From contig JARGNZ010000025.1 in NCBI GenBank assembly GCA_029209985.1, forward strand, positions 1 through 50,771: a DNA stretch of 50,771 nucleotides. The letters run 5' to 3'. Every line of letters starts with the position of its first letter. Position 1 is the first letter of the stretch. A program made the translations under genes and the position numbers. The DNA is from Parvibaculaceae bacterium (GTDB lineage Bacteria; Pseudomonadota; Alphaproteobacteria; Parvibaculales; Parvibaculaceae). This document shows positions 35,629-46,459 of the stretch, one piece after another. The notes beneath the pieces were generated by a model. That model ran no database searches, was not told where the DNA came from, and was given only the letters and a program-made list of their open reading frames with translations.

Positions 35629-35684
35629 GTGTTTTACGTTTCCTAAATCCAAATATGGTCATCTAAAGGATGAAGGGAGCCTCC

Positions 35685-37052
35685 GTGGCCGGAAAATCAT
35701 CAAAAAGACGCATCAGTCAATCCAGTCTTTGGCAATCTCTTGACGACCATAAAAGGTTTGTACAAAGAGAAGCTGGTGGTAAACGACTGATTTTGTCTTA
35801 CCAAAAAGCTGAAAACTTGGACTTTGCTCAAAGCGATTTGAGTGAAGCTGAACTGGTTGGCATGGAGGCTGTGGGCGCTCATTTTTTTGGTGCGAAAATG
35901 GTGCAGGCCAATTTGTTCGGGGCCAACCTTCAACGGGCCAACTTGGTTGGTGCAGATTTGAGCCGGGCAGATTTGCGTGGATGTAGTTTGTACCGCGCTG
36001 ATTTGCGTGAGGTAGATCTGACGGACGCTGATCTGCGCGATGGTTCCATCATGGAGCAAAGCGATGATGGGGAGTTGAGTTATATTGATCGGGGAGACCC
36101 ATCGGCGCGGTTAGATGAAGCTAATTTGAGCAGTGCCAATTTGGCAAATGCTCGGTTGGGACGTTTGGTCGGGCATGGTGCCGATTTGAGCCAAGCCAAC
36201 TTGGAGGGTGCACGTCTCAAAGGCTGTGATTTATCGGGTGCTAATTTGAGCGGTGCGGTGCTCACTGGGGCTGATCTCAGCAACGCAAATCTGACGAACT
36301 GTGATTTGCGAGGGGCGAGCCTGACAGGATCGGTTTTAGATGGATGTAATCTGGACGGGGCAAACCTCACATCCGCACAATTCTCTCGCGGGGCGTTAGA
36401 CGATGTTGCGTCTATGGAAGGGGTGTCTTTACCGGCTGGACGTGAGACTTTGGGGCAGACGATCAGCGAAATAGTTGAGCTTCACCGTAAGTGGATTGTG
36501 ACCGCCGGGCGGGAAGGGAAACAAGCTAAGTTTGAAGGGATTGACCTGACTGGACTGGATGCTGCCGAAGTTGAATTGTCGGCGGCTAATCTTACCGGGT
36601 GTTTGCTGGCGGAATCGCGATTGATTGATGGCAATTTTTCCATGACAGACTTTAGCAATGCGATGCTTGCCAATGTCGATTTTGAGGGGTCGGATTTGCG
36701 CGGGGCTTGTTTTGTGGGTGCTATTATGCACGGCGCACGTATGGCCTATGTGGATCTGTCTTCCATGCCGATTGCAGGGGGGCACGGGCGTATATGGCCC
36801 AGCAATTTTACGGGCGCAAACCTGTCTGCCAGTGAATTTACCGAGGCAAATTTGACCGGTGTTAATTTTGAAGGGGCGACGCTGATTGGCGCAGACCTAC
36901 GCGGGGCGATTGTCAAAGGGGCAAGCTTCGTGGATGCAGATTTAACCGGTGCAGATTTGCGCGAGATAGATTTGTCTGTATGCGATTTACGCGGCGCTAT
37001 TGGTGTGCGCGACCGATTGGCAGAAGCCATCAACCGGATTACGGGTCACTAA
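35685..37052 (+). CDS. Pentapeptide-repeat protein
   Basis: About 455 residues, with two blocks of A(D/N)LxG-type pentapeptides, at about 70-240 and 285-440, joined by a repeat-free helical stretch (about 250-280, SLPAGRETLGQTISEIVELHRKW). Such repeats fold as right-handed quadrilateral beta-helices. Some protect DNA gyrase, others have no known role. The likely start is the GTG at 35685, with AAGGGAG five bases upstream; an ATG at 35670 would add five residues. It lies after the GMC terminator and before a PAS gene on the opposite strand. No binding partner can be named. Confidence 0.85.
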   Translation: MAGKSSKRRISQSSLWQSLDDHKRFVQREAGGKRLILSYQKAENLDFAQSDLSEAELVGMEAVGAHFFGAKMVQANLFGANLQRANLVGADLSRADLRGCSLYRADLREVDLTDADLRDGSIMEQSDDGELSYIDRGDPSARLDEANLSSANLANARLGRLVGHGADLSQANLEGARLKGCDLSGANLSGAVLTGADLSNANLTNCDLRGASLTGSVLDGCNLDGANLTSAQFSRGALDDVASMEGVSLPAGRETLGQTISEIVELHRKWIVTAGREGKQAKFEGIDLTGLDAAEVELSAANLTGCLLAESRLIDGNFSMTDFSNAMLANVDFEGSDLRGACFVGAIMHGARMAYVDLSSMPIAGGHGRIWPSNFTGANLSASEFTEANLTGVNFEGATLIGADLRGAIVKGASFVDADLTGADLREIDLSVCDLRGAIGVRDRLAEAINRITGH

Positions 37053-37175: not shown

Positions 37176-37844
37176 CTAGTGGGCATCATCGGCAGTTGGT
37201 GCTTCTGATTTGATCAGTCTCAAATAGGGACGTTCTGACTTTAAGCGCGCGCGGCGTGTGGTTAAAGAACTCACCATTGAAATAGGGCGCGGTGGTGCTT
37301 CTCTTGAAATGCGGCTGGCAATTGCGGCAACGGCTGGGGCAACTGGCATTTGTGCAGGATCAAGCAATTGCATACGGTCAATCCATTGGCGGGTGAGGAC
37401 GTGTTCGCCCAGCCATGGTAGATCGTTCATGGGAACGGCCGCGCCTAGAATGCGCGTGATTTCGCCGTTCTCTTGGGCCAAAGGCAGCAGCATCATTTCC
37501 ATATTTACTTGGCGTTCGTCAGCGGTCTGAGCGGTGTATTCCACCAACCCTACTGTTGCGCTACTTGTCACATCATTGAGGAGGTGCGTCATGTTTTCGA
37601 GGCACTCATCTTGCCACATGGAAAGCAGGTTATGACGCCGAAATTCCATGCCGTATGCATTGCACAAGCCTGTGCCTGCAAGGCGGAAACGATAGGACCA
37701 TTTGTCTGACCGTTCCAAAATGAAAACGTAAGGTAGGAGGCGTTTGATTTCGCGCGGTTCAATTTCGCTGCGGCGAGGTGCAATCCGTTCTGATCGAATT
37801 GAATTCCAATATTCAAACAGTGCTTTTGTCGTTTTGTGTTTCAT
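37176..37844 (-). CDS. PAS_5-type PAS domain protein
   Basis: A 222-residue protein with the PAS_5 pattern common in alphaproteobacteria: FEYWNSIRSERIAPRRSEIEPREIKRLLPYVFILER at the N-terminus, then YRFRLAGTGLCNAYGMEFRRHNLLSMW (about 50-77) and LPLAQENGEITRILGAAVPM. No output domain is attached; the C-terminal 60 residues are basic and unstructured in appearance. Ligand and partner are unknown. It is divergent from the secreted protein at 38453 across 608 bases. Confidence 0.88.
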   Translation of the reverse strand: MKHKTTKALFEYWNSIRSERIAPRRSEIEPREIKRLLPYVFILERSDKWSYRFRLAGTGLCNAYGMEFRRHNLLSMWQDECLENMTHLLNDVTSSATVGLVEYTAQTADERQVNMEMMLLPLAQENGEITRILGAAVPMNDLPWLGEHVLTRQWIDRMQLLDPAQMPVAPAVAAIASRISREAPPRPISMVSSLTTRRARLKSERPYLRLIKSEAPTADDAH

Positions 37845-38452: not shown

Positions 38453-39325
38453 ATGGAACAGAAATTCGATATTCGTGGTGTTGTCCTTGCCGGTGTTGTC
38501 TCGGTTTCAGCCATTGCTTTGATGTCCCTTGTTGACGCACGTTATGGACCAGTGTCTGCGTGGGAAGATGATGGGTGTAATTCAGGCTGTGAGCCGGAGC
38601 CAGAACCAGAAGATTGTGGTTGTGATGACGGTGGCGGCCATGGGCATGGCGACAAGACGAAAGTGAAAGTTGATATCGACATGGACCTTGAGGTGAACGT
38701 CGATATTGAGAACAACATCACAGTTGATGCGTCTTCAAATGCAAACGCAAATGCGGGGGCACGAGCTGCTGCACGTGGTATTGGCCAAGCATCTGCGGTT
38801 GCAAATGCACGGGCAAAATCGGGTCGTCGCCGGACTGGTGGGGGCGGCGGTACGTCAATCGTATATGCGCCCAACATTGCTGGCCCTATCGGTAATTTGA
38901 ATGTCGTGGTTGAAAAAGACGTGCGCGAATTGAAACCGGTTCAAGCCTATTGCTTGGATGCCAAAGGTTTGCAGGAAGCCGCGATCACCAAAACAAGTGG
39001 CCAGACCATTGATGTAGGCACCTATCAAGGGGAAGTCTTTCAATGTGTCGCAGGCACTATGATGGTGGCCACTATCGGTAAAATGAGCGAAGGCTCTATG
39101 GCTGATTATACTCGTGGTTACCAAATTGAATGCCAGGACGGGGAAGCCCTTTCTGTTAATGGAACAGGACGCCTTGCTTGTACCGCAGCGTCTGGTCCGA
39201 TCTATACAGCCAATGCATCAAGTGCCCGGTTTGCGCAGGTTATTTTGCGCAAAGGCGGCCGGTCACGCCAATCTGTTGCCGCCGGCGGTGGCATGACCCA
39301 CTTTAGCGGTGGCGTGGGCTACTAA
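38453..39325 (+). CDS. Unrecognised secreted Cys/Asp/Asn-Ala-rich protein, possible surface fibre or adhesin
   Basis: A 290-residue protein with an N-terminal hydrophobic signal (about 10-28). The mature region has distinct parts. Residues 41-62 form an acidic cysteine cluster (C42, C46, C55, C57, with PEPEPE). A short HGHGDK follows. Residues 69-92 alternate charged and hydrophobic residues (KVKVDIDMDLEVNVD), suiting a beta-strand. Residues 94-125 are Asn/Ala-rich (ANANAGARAAARG). Residues 126-135 are Arg/Gly. A probable globular domain (about 136-265) has four more cysteines. I recognise no family. GGAG precedes the ATG. The gene is convergent with an HfaB/CsgG-like lipoprotein, which hints at secretion to the surface. 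Confidence 0.75.
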   Translation: MEQKFDIRGVVLAGVVSVSAIALMSLVDARYGPVSAWEDDGCNSGCEPEPEPEDCGCDDGGGHGHGDKTKVKVDIDMDLEVNVDIENNITVDASSNANANAGARAAARGIGQASAVANARAKSGRRRTGGGGGTSIVYAPNIAGPIGNLNVVVEKDVRELKPVQAYCLDAKGLQEAAITKTSGQTIDVGTYQGEVFQCVAGTMMVATIGKMSEGSMADYTRGYQIECQDGEALSVNGTGRLACTAASGPIYTANASSARFAQVILRKGGRSRQSVAAGGGMTHFSGGVGY

Positions 39326-39354
39326 GCTCCAGCACTGGCACTTATCGGTTGATA

Positions 39355-39388
39355 AAAACCCCTGAAGCTGAATGGCTTCAGGGGTTTT
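39355..39388 (+). terminator. Intrinsic terminator after secreted protein
   Basis: Bases 39355-39368 pair perfectly with 39375-39388 (14 pairs), capped by a six-base loop and ending in Ts. Confidence 0.93.
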
Positions 39389-39453
39389 TCGTGGGTATTT
39401 TCTTTTATATATAAATGTCTCCCATACCGCACAAATGCTTCCCCTCACACCCA

Positions 39454-39608
39454 CGTCATTGCCGGACTTGTTCCGGCAATCCATCTTTCCTCAGGGATGG
39501 CCTATCTGGTGTCGGCGGGACTGTCGTTTGGTAGGGCGGAGAGGGCGTGGAAACGTGACTATTGTCCCTGCGGCTTCTTGGATCTCCGGGACAAGCCCGA
39601 AGATGACG
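39454..39608. repeat. Composite palindromic repeat, unit 1 of 2
   Basis: The left arm (CGTCATTGCCGGAC...) and right arm (...GAAGATGACG) are inverted copies of about 30 bases around a core of about 95. The core matches that of unit 2 almost base for base over its length. Part of the repeat family also found near 1 and 45914-46459. Confidence 0.85.
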
Positions 39609-39746
39609 CTTTGGGGCGTGGGGATGAGGGAGGTGGTTGTCTAGGTGTGTACAGTTTTGCGGGGGGTACATTGGTGGAGGCCCGTTGTCCACCAGCAACC
39701 ACGATCATTCCACAAACATCTCCCACCTCTCGTCTCCCAGCACCCA

Positions 39747-39901
39747 CGTCATTGCCGGACTTGTTCCGGCAATCCATCCCTCCTCAGGGATGGCCTATCT
39801 GGTGTCGGCGGTACTGTCGTTTGGTAGGGCGGAGAGGGCGTGGAAACGTGACTATTGTTCCTGTGGCTTATTGGATCTCCGGGACAAGCCCGAAGATGAC
39901 G
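39747..39901. repeat. Composite palindromic repeat, unit 2 of 2
   Basis: Same length and orientation as the unit 293 bases upstream, with only scattered substitutions. Arms and core both match, suggesting tandem duplication. Reading frames running through it are artefacts of the palindrome. Confidence 0.85.
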
Positions 39902-39991
39902 CTTTGGGGTGTGGGGGAAGCGATGATGCGGTCTATTGAGCCTTGGCGTTGGGTTTCTTCACGCACTGGCGCTCTCAAATAGGCACAAAAA

Positions 39992-40015
39992 AAAGGAGGG
40001 TCGAAACCCTCCTTT
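39992..40015 (-). terminator. Terminator for the HfaB-like gene
   Basis: AAAGGAGGGT (39992-40001) pairs with ACCCTCCTTT (40006-40015). The long A-run at 39987-39994 becomes a T-tract on minus. A further stem (40044-40052 with 40057-40065) lies between this and the stop at 40077. Confidence 0.88.
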
Positions 40016-40076
40016 GAAGTTGGCTCTCAGGCTATCAGGAAGTGAAAACCTCTGAAGAGGTTTTCGTCCCCCCAGA

Positions 40077-41123
40077 TTAGTTTACACCGCCACGCAGACC
40101 TGAGTTGAAGGTCGGCTCAGCGTAGTAGTTGTAAGGGCTGGAGACAGCGCGTTCTGGTGTGGTGGTGGCAACACGGGCTGTGTAAGGGGCCGGGGCTGCT
40201 TGTGCAGAACGCGTGTTCGCAGTGTTTGGGGCTTTGAAATCGATTTTACCCATTGGGTCGTTCTTGTTGATTTCGCGGCATGTTGCAGGGCGCACGTTGT
40301 GCAAAGGTACCATCATTTCCAGTACGGCGCGTTCGATGACAGAGCGGACGGCAAGTTGAAGTGGCTCAACTGAATATTCGTCGACCCCGATGTCAAAGAT
40401 GTTGCCGCCGAAGAAGTCAAACACACCTGCGCCGATTTCTTGGCCGATGATTTGTTTCTGGTAAGACACAACGTCCACCACTTCGAGGGTTTTTGAATTT
40501 ACCAAGCGCAGGTCAAGACCGATGTTCATTACGAACAGGTTCATGCTGCCAGAGGCTTGCAAGGGTGTTGCGCCGGTTTCAGAGAACAAACCATCTACAC
40601 GACCGTTGCGAATGTCGTAGTTCAATTCTGTGATCCCACCAACAAGGTAGTAATCAGAACCAGGCATGACACCTGCGTTGATGCGGCGATAGTCACCGTC
40701 TGACGCGCCGATCAATTTGTTGTTGGCGTATTTCAATTCCAATTCGGTGATGGCTGTATCGAAGCGTTCGACCAAACGGATGCCGGATTTGTTCAATGCG
40801 GACATGGCCATCAAAGCAGCGCCTTGGGTGACCTTGTGGCCGCCCTCGTCTTCTACTTTACCAGTGTAATCGCGGATGTTGCCAACAGCAACGCGCAAGG
40901 GGCTGCTTGTTTGGCGAATTTGTGTGCCAATGCAACGCAGTGCGCTTGAATAAGGTGTTTCATTGTCGATAACTGGTGCGTCACCGATGGGGGTGGTGTA
41001 GCGCCCGTCTTCGCGTGCGTTGGGGGAGATGCAGCCTGTAAGCGCTAGGGCAAGGCCGACAACGCCGAGAACTTTTTTGGGTGCTGACAGTGTCGTCATC
41101 AAAGACGTAACTTCCGTAAACAT
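40077..41123 (-). CDS. hfaB: HfaB/CsgG-family outer-membrane lipoprotein
   Basis: A 348-residue lipoprotein with lipobox LTGC (Cys31). The conserved blocks RVAVGNIRDYTGKVE, KVTQGAALMAMSAL, LVERFDT and ELKYANNKLI (about 77-138) match the HfaB branch of CsgG-like proteins. In Caulobacter, HfaB anchors the holdfast together with HfaA and HfaD; CsgG forms a nonameric pore that exports curli subunits. Here neither hfaA nor hfaD is adjacent. AGGAG eight bases before 41123 supports the start. The C-terminal 60 residues are disordered-looking. A pore or anchor role is inferred from family. Confidence 0.85.
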   Translation of the reverse strand: MFTEVTSLMTTLSAPKKVLGVVGLALALTGCISPNAREDGRYTTPIGDAPVIDNETPYSSALRCIGTQIRQTSSPLRVAVGNIRDYTGKVEDEGGHKVTQGAALMAMSALNKSGIRLVERFDTAITELELKYANNKLIGASDGDYRRINAGVMPGSDYYLVGGITELNYDIRNGRVDGLFSETGATPLQASGSMNLFVMNIGLDLRLVNSKTLEVVDVVSYQKQIIGQEIGAGVFDFFGGNIFDIGVDEYSVEPLQLAVRSVIERAVLEMMVPLHNVRPATCREINKNDPMGKIDFKAPNTANTRSAQAAPAPYTARVATTTPERAVSSPYNYYAEPTFNSGLRGGVN

Positions 41124-41488: not shown

Positions 41489-42091
41489 ATGGCGACGTTG
41501 GAATTTTATTTTGATTGTTCAAGCCCTTGGACTTATTTGGCCTTTAGTCAGATTGAAGCGGTGGTAGAGCGCACGGGGGCTGAAATCCTTTGGAAGCCGA
41601 TCCTTGTGGGCGGTGTTTTTAATGCGGTGAATAAGGATGTGTATGAGACACGGGCAAACCCACATCCGGTGAAGAGCCGCCATTATGTAAAGGACCTGCG
41701 CGATTGGGCGCGATTTTGCGGCATTAAAATCGGCAATCCGCCTGTTTTTCCGGTGAATTCTGTAAAGGCCATGCGGGGGGCTTTTGTGGCGATGGACGAG
41801 GGGAAATTGCCTGCCTATGTCGGGGATGTCTTTAAGACTTATTGGGAAGATCTCGAAGATATTTCGCAAGATAGCGTGCTAGAGACGATTTGTGGCCGGG
41901 TTGGTTTGGATTGGGCGTTGTTTTCGGCACGTATAAAAGAACAAGACATCAAGGACCGTTTGCGGCACAACACGGATGACGTGATTGCACGGGGTGGCTT
42001 TGGCTCTCCGACGATGTTTGTAAACACGGATGATATGTATTTTGGCAATGATCGGTTGCCTTTAGTGGAGGCTGCGCTGCGGAATGTCTGA
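41489..42091 (+). CDS. 2-hydroxychromene-2-carboxylate isomerase (DsbA/GST-kappa family)
   Basis: A 200-residue protein of the GST-kappa/HCCA isomerase group. The N-terminus LEFYFDCSSPWTYLAFSQI carries the active-site serines just after Cys10, and WKPILVGGVFNAVN and VFPVNSVKAMRGA are typical. HCCA isomerases act in naphthalene breakdown and use glutathione, but general homologs are common and the natural substrate is not known. The start at 41489 has GGGAGG upstream; a GTG at 41483 overlaps that site. It overlaps the next gene by eight bases. Confidence 0.88.
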   Translation: MATLEFYFDCSSPWTYLAFSQIEAVVERTGAEILWKPILVGGVFNAVNKDVYETRANPHPVKSRHYVKDLRDWARFCGIKIGNPPVFPVNSVKAMRGAFVAMDEGKLPAYVGDVFKTYWEDLEDISQDSVLETICGRVGLDWALFSARIKEQDIKDRLRHNTDDVIARGGFGSPTMFVNTDDMYFGNDRLPLVEAALRNV

Positions 42092-42884
42092 ATTTGATCC
42101 AACTCAAGGTGTTCGAAAAGAACCCCCCGCCTTTAATGTGCCGTCCGTTATACTCGGGCTCTTGTCCGCCATGTGGCTGGTTTATGCCTTGGTGAGCTTT
42201 GAGGACATGCAGACGCAGATTAACGTGATGGCGCAGTATGGATTTATGCCTGCTCGCTACACGGGCACCGAGGGCGTTGTTTACGGGAATTTCCCCGGTG
42301 GCCTGTTGTCTGACATTTTGGGCTTTGTGTCTTATGCGTTCTTGCACGGTAGCCTGACACATATTCTGCTTAACTCTGTCTGGTTGGTGGTGTTTGGTAC
42401 GCCAGTTGCGCGCCGTATTGGTGTTGTGCGTTTTCTCAGCTTTTATTTAGTGTGTGCGGCATTGGCAGCTATTTTCCACATGATGCTCCATGTCGGCAGT
42501 ACCGGCGTTGTGATTGGCGCCTCTGGTGCGGTGTCGGGTCTTATGGGCGGGGCGGCACGCTTTATCTTTTTGACACCGGGGCCGTTGGGCGCTTTGCAGG
42601 GGGGCACACCCAATGGGCAAGCCCCGCGTGCGCAAGCCACGCTGTTCCAGTCTTTGAGCGATCGCCGTACGCTCATTTTTGTTGGTCTATGGGTTGGCTT
42701 AAATTTCCTCTTTGGTGTGTCTGGGCTTTCTCCAAACGGGGCGACGGTCTCCATTGCGTGGGAAGCGCATTTGGGAGGCTTTTTGGCTGGCCTTTTATTG
42801 TTCGGCTTTTTTGATCCCTTGCAACGGTCTGCTTCAGGCGGGCCGGGCAATGTCGGCTATGGCGAGTGGCGCGATAAGAAGTAG
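42084..42884 (+). CDS. Rhomboid family intramembrane serine protease
   Basis: A 266-residue membrane protease with about six helices. The catalytic serine is Ser147 in GASGAVSG and the catalytic histidine is His229 in AWEAHLGGF. The upstream signature HGSLTHILLNS (His88, His93, Asn97) supports the fold. Rhomboids cleave within transmembrane segments. It overlaps the isomerase by eight bases and is probably translationally coupled. The substrate is unknown. Confidence 0.92.
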   Translation: MSEFDPTQGVRKEPPAFNVPSVILGLLSAMWLVYALVSFEDMQTQINVMAQYGFMPARYTGTEGVVYGNFPGGLLSDILGFVSYAFLHGSLTHILLNSVWLVVFGTPVARRIGVVRFLSFYLVCAALAAIFHMMLHVGSTGVVIGASGAVSGLMGGAARFIFLTPGPLGALQGGTPNGQAPRAQATLFQSLSDRRTLIFVGLWVGLNFLFGVSGLSPNGATVSIAWEAHLGGFLAGLLLFGFFDPLQRSASGGPGNVGYGEWRDKK

Positions 42885-45913: not shown

Positions 45914-46055
45914 CGTTATTGCCGGACTCGTTCCGGCAATCCATTTTCCGGCAGGGGAGCCTATCGGTTGGTGCTTTGTTGTTGCTACCTGATTGCGCTT
46001 TTTCCACCTCTCGTTGGTTGATAGCTGGATCCCCGGGACAAGCCCGAGGATGACG
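45914..46055. repeat. Composite palindromic repeat, unit A of 3
   Basis: Arms CGTTATTGCCGGAC... and ...GAGGATGACG face each other around a core of about 85 bases. It begins a triplicated block with a period of about 202 bases. Confidence 0.87.
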
Positions 46056-46114: not shown

Positions 46115-46257
46115 CGTCATTGCCGGACTTGTTCCGGCAATCCATTTTCCGGCAGGGAGACCCTATCGACTGGCGCTCGGTCGTCGCTACCCGGTTGCGC
46201 TTTTTCCACCTCTCGTTGGTTGATAGCTGGATCCCCGGGACAAGCCCGAGGATGACG
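46115..46257. repeat. Composite palindromic repeat, unit B of 3
   Basis: Same architecture as unit A with few changes. The 59-base linker after it (46258-46316) is identical to the linker before it (46056-46114), showing tandem duplication of unit plus linker. Confidence 0.9.
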
Positions 46258-46316: not shown

Positions 46317-46459
46317 CGTCATTGCCGGACTCGTTCCGGCAATCCATTTTCCGGCAGGGAGACCCTATCGGCTGGCGCTCTGTCGTCGCTACCCGGTTAT
46401 GCTTTTTCCACCTCTCGTTGGTTGTTAGATGGATCCCCGGGACAAACCCGAGGGTGACG
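46317..46459. repeat. Composite palindromic repeat, unit C of 3
   Basis: Third copy, slightly more diverged on its right arm (GGGTGACG instead of GGATGACG). It ends 144 bases before the sigma-factor gene. Reading frames across the three units are artefacts. Confidence 0.87.

Follow-up and report, generated by a model that had tools for sequence, protein, structure and literature searches.

The window is the whole 50,771-nucleotide stretch of Parvibaculaceae DNA that was analysed. Two convergent genes were found in it, one on the plus strand at 38453-39325, encoding a secreted protein of 290 aa, and one on the minus strand at 40077-41123, encoding a lipoprotein of 348 aa. This agrees with the preliminary description, in which the pair was presented as an HfaB/CsgG-like exporter facing an unrecognised secreted protein. 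The features of the locus are the following.

37176-37844, minus strand: PAS_5 protein, divergent neighbour of hfaE (PF07310, E 4.5e-39).
38453-39325, plus strand: HfaE-like secreted protein, 290 aa (open reading frame; no Pfam/NCBIfam family; match to a Caulobacteraceae-only C-terminal HMM).
38453-38548, plus strand: signal-like N-terminus, about residues 1-32 (reading of the sequence; predicted helix 7-30).
38576-38623, plus strand: acidic/Gly cysteine cluster C42, C46, C55 and C57 (conservation against 45 Caulobacteraceae homologues).
38660-38710, plus strand: alternating polar/hydrophobic run KVKVDIDMDLEVNVDIE, residues 70-86 (shuffle test; alignment A1).
38732-38761, plus strand: Asn/Ala block SSNANANAGA, residues 94-103 (sequence; alignment A1).
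38933-39202, plus strand: predicted all-beta C-terminal domain, residues 161-250 (AlphaFold; invariant C167, C198, C227 and C243).
39308-39322, plus strand: GGVGY motif at the C-terminus, residues 286-290 (its GGVG is invariant in alignments A1, A5 and A7).
39992-40015, minus strand: terminator-like hairpin 3' of hfaB (consensus scan only; count within the chance range).
40077-41123, minus strand: hfaB, outer-membrane lipoprotein of the CsgG/HfaB family, 348 aa (NF037935, PF03783, CsgG structures, lipobox).
42084-42884, plus strand: rhomboid protease, conserved neighbour on the hfaB side (PF01694).

The minus-strand protein matched the NCBIfam equivalog model for HfaB (NF037935) over its full length with 351.4 bits, passing the curated cut-off of 300. 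The Pfam CsgG domain (PF03783) was recognised with an E value of 1.2e-16, and CsgG structures were the closest solved relatives in sequence (E 1e-4 to 4uv2). All the HfaB-family blocks quoted previously were present, as was the claimed lipobox, which was read as LALALTG-C with Cys31. The gene is a true hfaB and gave the single match to the HfaB model in the whole host genome. A search of plasmids for HfaB yielded distant CsgG/HfaB proteins only. In Caulobacter crescentus, HfaB is a periplasmic-side component of the outer membrane, and HfaA and HfaD depend on the presence of HfaB to reach the surface (PMC6707917).

The arrangement of the HfaABD operon, with hfaA upstream and hfaD downstream of hfaB, was not found in the window. 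The lack of both genes, which had been reported for the sequence at hand, holds for the whole 3.09-Mb host genome (99.8% complete), where the HfaA (NF037934) and HfaD (NF037936) models gave no match at E values up to 10. A tblastn search with the HfaA and HfaD proteins of relatives, excluding the Brevundimonas-like HfaD query, also detected nothing in the window. The HfaA model was passed in two of the 31 host-family genomes tested, in genus g4 only, and there directly upstream of hfaB. The HfaD model was passed in none of the 51 genomes searched; weak matches occur, including one in G043 immediately downstream of hfaB. The absence of HfaD is less certain than that of HfaA because HfaD is repetitive, and both proteins, being short or repetitive, may have diverged beyond their models. 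A DUF2147 gene that lies between hfaE and hfaB in some relatives is not HfaD.

The signal, the acidic four-cysteine cluster, the alternating strand, the Asn/Ala block and the globular tail previously claimed for the secreted protein were all found in the 290-aa sequence. In comparison with 45 Caulobacteraceae homologues, six of its eight cysteines are invariant, C42 and C46 among them, and C55 and C57 are nearly so. The run KVKVDIDMDLEVNVDIE occupies the position at which relatives carry Asn-rich repeats (alignment A1). Its strict alternation is beyond chance, as none of 20,000 shuffles reached 17 with VILMFYW taken as hydrophobic, while 24 of 20,000 did when A and C were also counted. AlphaFold predicted a confident all-beta domain at residues 161-250 (pLDDT about 90 over most of it) and a disordered low-complexity arm, and a similar prediction of a confident all-beta C-terminal domain with a disordered arm was obtained for the C. 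vibrioides homologue. Both models were built from a 46-sequence alignment. The fold searches of these models gave no usable match: with Foldseek the window model reached a best E value of 0.7 and the Caulobacter model one of 0.02 at a TM-score of 0.12, and a VIA fold search reached a best Z of 2.7 with no useful solved structure.

Neither Pfam nor NCBIfam gave any match to the secreted protein of the window at E values up to 1. The models NF037934 and NF037936 also failed to match it at E up to 1, and HfaA, HfaD and curlin were rejected as its identity since none of their models matched. No unrelated known family was found in Pfam or NCBIfam for the members from the window, from Caulobacter or from family f5. 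A chance open reading frame was ruled out, and the gene is real, because another 34 genomes of the host's family, and genomes well beyond it, carry homologues.

Homology of the window protein to the Caulobacter protein was evaluated with C-terminal profiles, each made from a single clade and without the low-complexity part, and with Z set to 100,000. The Caulobacteraceae-only HMM matched the window protein with E 7e-10, and the HMM made from the window's family only matched the Caulobacter protein with E 6e-9. The two C-terminal profiles were aligned by hhalign with a probability of 99.0, and the window protein shares about 32% identity with the Caulobacter homologue. In a scan of named genomes with the Caulobacteraceae-only alignment, the best match was Caulobacter vibrioides DSM 9893 (98% to the query); HfaB was carried by all 19 named genomes tested.

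The C. vibrioides homologue (L235:10001-10912) is convergent to hfaABD and is the eleventh gene after hfaA, in the order hfaA, hfaB, hfaD, ABC-F, sensor, 334-aa protein, ABC ATPase, permease, 204-aa protein, 374-aa protein, M16 peptidase, homologue, where the ABC ATPase and the separate hfaA and hfaB were taken from a close relative (L224, G638). A similar layout was observed in a genus of family f64 with 4-6 Mb genomes, in which hfaA-hfaB-hfaD are followed by eight genes and then by the convergent homologue. In the published numbering, CC2628 is hfaA and CC2639 is a conserved hypothetical gene limited to Caulobacter and its relatives (PMC2241609). Its place eleven genes after hfaA therefore makes the homologue CC_2639, whose number corresponds to that of CCNA_02722, the gene named hfaE; the last link is made by gene count. 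The C. crescentus strain deleted in CCNA_02722 leaves holdfast on glass without cells, which gave the gene its name (PMC6372794). Based on the reciprocal C-terminal profile matches and the shared gene arrangement, the secreted protein is a divergent HfaE, a member of a known family and not a new kind of subunit as had been suggested. Membership of an unrelated known family had been named in the preliminary description as an outcome that would speak against its proposal; a known protein was indeed found, but a related one, and one needed for holdfast anchoring in C. crescentus. Deletion of hfaE makes C. crescentus cells shed their holdfast (PMC6372794).

The neighbourhood of hfaE is conserved. 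Among 80 named loci, a PAS_5 gene lies divergently upstream of hfaE at 66 of the 67 Caulobacteraceae loci with enough flank, hfaB is convergent downstream wherever it falls inside the flank, and an M16 gene is convergent to hfaE at 58 of 66. The PAS_5 gene is a more constant neighbour of hfaE than hfaB itself. The rhomboid gene is found beside hfaA/hfaB in families f1, f4, f64 and f115 and in C. vibrioides. Of these genes, the window keeps PAS_5, hfaE, hfaB and the rhomboid gene, together with a DsbA-like gene, and is without hfaA, hfaD and M16.

Some further observations were made at these loci. The M16 gene encodes a secreted peptidase of about 980 aa (L235:10980-13958, minus strand), and it follows hfaD in Brevundimonas-like genomes. 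The rhomboid protease (42084-42884) has a weak similarity to rhombosortase, below the cut-off (E 5e-6). A 460-aa pentapeptide-repeat protein (35670-37052, plus strand) adjoins the PAS_5 gene, with relatives placed likewise in some other genomes. Between hfaE and hfaB there are two direct repeats of 176 bp (39448-39623 and 39741-39916), which are 96% identical. Their palindromic core, TCATTGCCGGACTTGTTCCGGCAATCCATC, is present in six copies in the window, where none is expected, the others being at 1-30, 45916-45945, 46117-46146 and 46319-46348, and it resembles a dispersed REP-type element.

The distribution of the protein was determined in a class-wide sample of 387 alphaproteobacterial genomes, each at least 90% complete, with HfaB scored over its cut-off. 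As the preliminary description had anticipated, the secreted protein is tied to HfaB: an HfaE homologue was present in 18 of the 21 genomes with HfaB and in none of the 366 without it. One match, in G046, was set aside from the counts, being borderline (E 0.005), repeat-only and confined to the first 78 model positions. By family, the protein occurs in five of the six families with HfaB and in no other, for a nominal P of about 1e-8 if 120-150 families are taken as sampled, individual genomes not being independent. Genomes with HfaB and no homologue, which had been listed as a possible objection, do exist but speak only weakly against the proposal, being three of 21 (G440, G307 and G211). Their hfaB context is a different one.

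A search of 98 genomes found the protein in 35 of the 40 of the host's family, a count that includes the host itself, and in one member each of two further families. HfaB was detected by its model in 36 of the 40, and 35 of these 36 have the secreted protein. The five genomes without it are two of genus g2, G027 and G039, all four also without HfaB, and G001, a 70%-complete genome in which the contig ends at hfaB. In the Caulobacteraceae-like family f64, the homologue was found in 145 of 199 genomes. In family f5, the gene and hfaB lie on different contigs (G043), yet both are present.

The homologues follow a common plan, in which a signal-like N-terminus is followed by paired cysteines, a low-complexity arm and a stretch rich in Ala and Gly; the C-terminal domain has four invariant cysteines and ends in GGVG. 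In genera g3 and g5 the arm consists of NYNKNYNKN and NTNTNTNNN arrays and in family f5 of KPVTINKNINI repeats, whereas in the window protein it is short, acidic and alternating. Asn makes up as much as 17% of the Asn-rich arms of relatives and 4.5% of the window protein. The f5 homologues (L106, L115 and others) carry tandem KPVTINKNINIY-like repeats. Because the f5 repeat matches models of the LpxD-type left-handed beta-helix (hexapeptide), weakly and far under the cut-off (E 0.001), the f5 arm may form a beta-solenoid. As the arm differs strongly between lineages, the function of HfaE may also have shifted among them.

With HfaA and HfaD missing, HfaE is the only recognisable anchor partner of HfaB in the host. 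We consider it probable that the two proteins form a reduced holdfast-anchor system, in which HfaE is exported via HfaB and tethers the holdfast polysaccharide. HfaB would serve as the pore, a lipoprotein that resembles CsgG and sits at the outer membrane. HfaE would cross the inner membrane by its signal peptide and then pass the outer membrane, most likely through HfaB; no paper showing this export was found in a literature search. Once at the surface, the disulphide-capable all-beta C-terminal domain and the flexible arm would hold the polysaccharide at the cell pole, and the host would itself be a holdfast producer. The loss of hfaA and hfaD in the lineage would have left HfaE as the only recognisable client and anchor to HfaB. 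The secreted protein, earlier taken for a possible new exported subunit or anchor, is best explained as an exported anchor component that belongs to the HfaE family. A stricter version, a minimal two-protein anchor in which HfaE alone replaces HfaA and HfaD as client of HfaB and its arm takes over the cohesive role of their curlin-like repeats, is proposed only tentatively and seems to us somewhat doubtful.

Other explanations have to be weighed against the reduced holdfast anchor. HfaB and the HfaE homologue could work together and still anchor or export something other than a Caulobacter-type holdfast, such as another polysaccharide or a protein coat. The absence of the other known anchor parts and the replacement of the arm by acidic alternating and Asn-rich sequence would fit such a cargo, but conservation extends to HfaB, to the C-terminal domain and to the ancestral gene order, and HfaE is kept also where HfaA and HfaD are present, which makes this explanation unlikely. 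Even less probable is a role of the protein as the building block of a new amyloid or adhesin fibre, with HfaB as its exporter. Amyloid-subunit export by CsgG-type pores is established for curli, and the long NYNKNYNKN, NTNTNTNNN or KPVTINKNINI arrays of relatives would suit a fibre. Against this, no curlin-type family was matched, the low-complexity half is disordered in the AlphaFold model, the Asn content of the window protein is low, and, in Caulobacter, the homologue combines a short arm containing Asn with the genetic behaviour of an anchor. The amyloid suggestion of the preliminary description is therefore unsupported beyond composition.

The linkage could also reflect neighbourhood inertia, the secreted protein being a partner of the PAS_5 protein or part of some other envelope process, and HfaB a mere neighbour. 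The greater constancy of PAS_5 as a neighbour and the separate contigs in f5 point in this direction. However, both genes co-occur even where unlinked, no HfaE homologue without HfaB was found in 387 genomes, and the hfaE mutant sheds its holdfast (PMC6372794), so that we regard this as the most improbable of the explanations, with hardly any credit left to it.

HfaE, which was recognised in a single species by a genetic screen and for which Pfam and NCBIfam have no model, now extends to at least five alphaproteobacterial families. In the host's family it tracks HfaB more faithfully than HfaA does. This leads to the testable idea that HfaE is the core HfaB client and holdfast tether, HfaA and HfaD being additions that are dispensable in some lineages. 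A natural system of HfaB and HfaE would represent a simpler model of the way in which bacterial glue is kept on the cell.

In comparison with known systems, the hfaB of the window resembles other members of NF037935 in its full-length match, lipobox and CsgG domain, and differs in that hfaA does not precede it and hfaD does not follow it. Its product is also like the curli pore CsgG in sequence (E 1e-4 to 4uv2), whereas the secreted protein gave no curlin family match that would liken it to the curli subunit CsgA (Pfam, E up to 1). HfaA and HfaD, like the window protein, are secreted proteins of small size or proteins rich in repeats, and the same pore is thought to serve all of them, but the window protein matches neither model. 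The closest likeness is to HfaE of C. crescentus, represented by L235:10001-10912. Both proteins have a signal-like N-terminus, paired N-terminal cysteines, a low-complexity middle, a predicted four-cysteine all-beta C-terminal domain and a C-terminal GGVG, and both loci have a divergent PAS_5 neighbour and a convergent hfaB. The two proteins differ in the arm, which is rich in Pro and Cys in the Caulobacter protein and acidic and alternating in that of the window; the Asn/Ala block belongs to the window protein, and an additional helix-strand piece at the C-terminus (CNERSLLRR) to the Caulobacter one. Caulobacter keeps hfaA, hfaD and the intervening M16 peptidase gene, which the window does not have. 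An anchor of HfaB and HfaE without HfaA and HfaD would be a new variant of a known system; what is new here is the breadth of the HfaE family, for which there is no model, and an anchor set apparently reduced to HfaB and HfaE.
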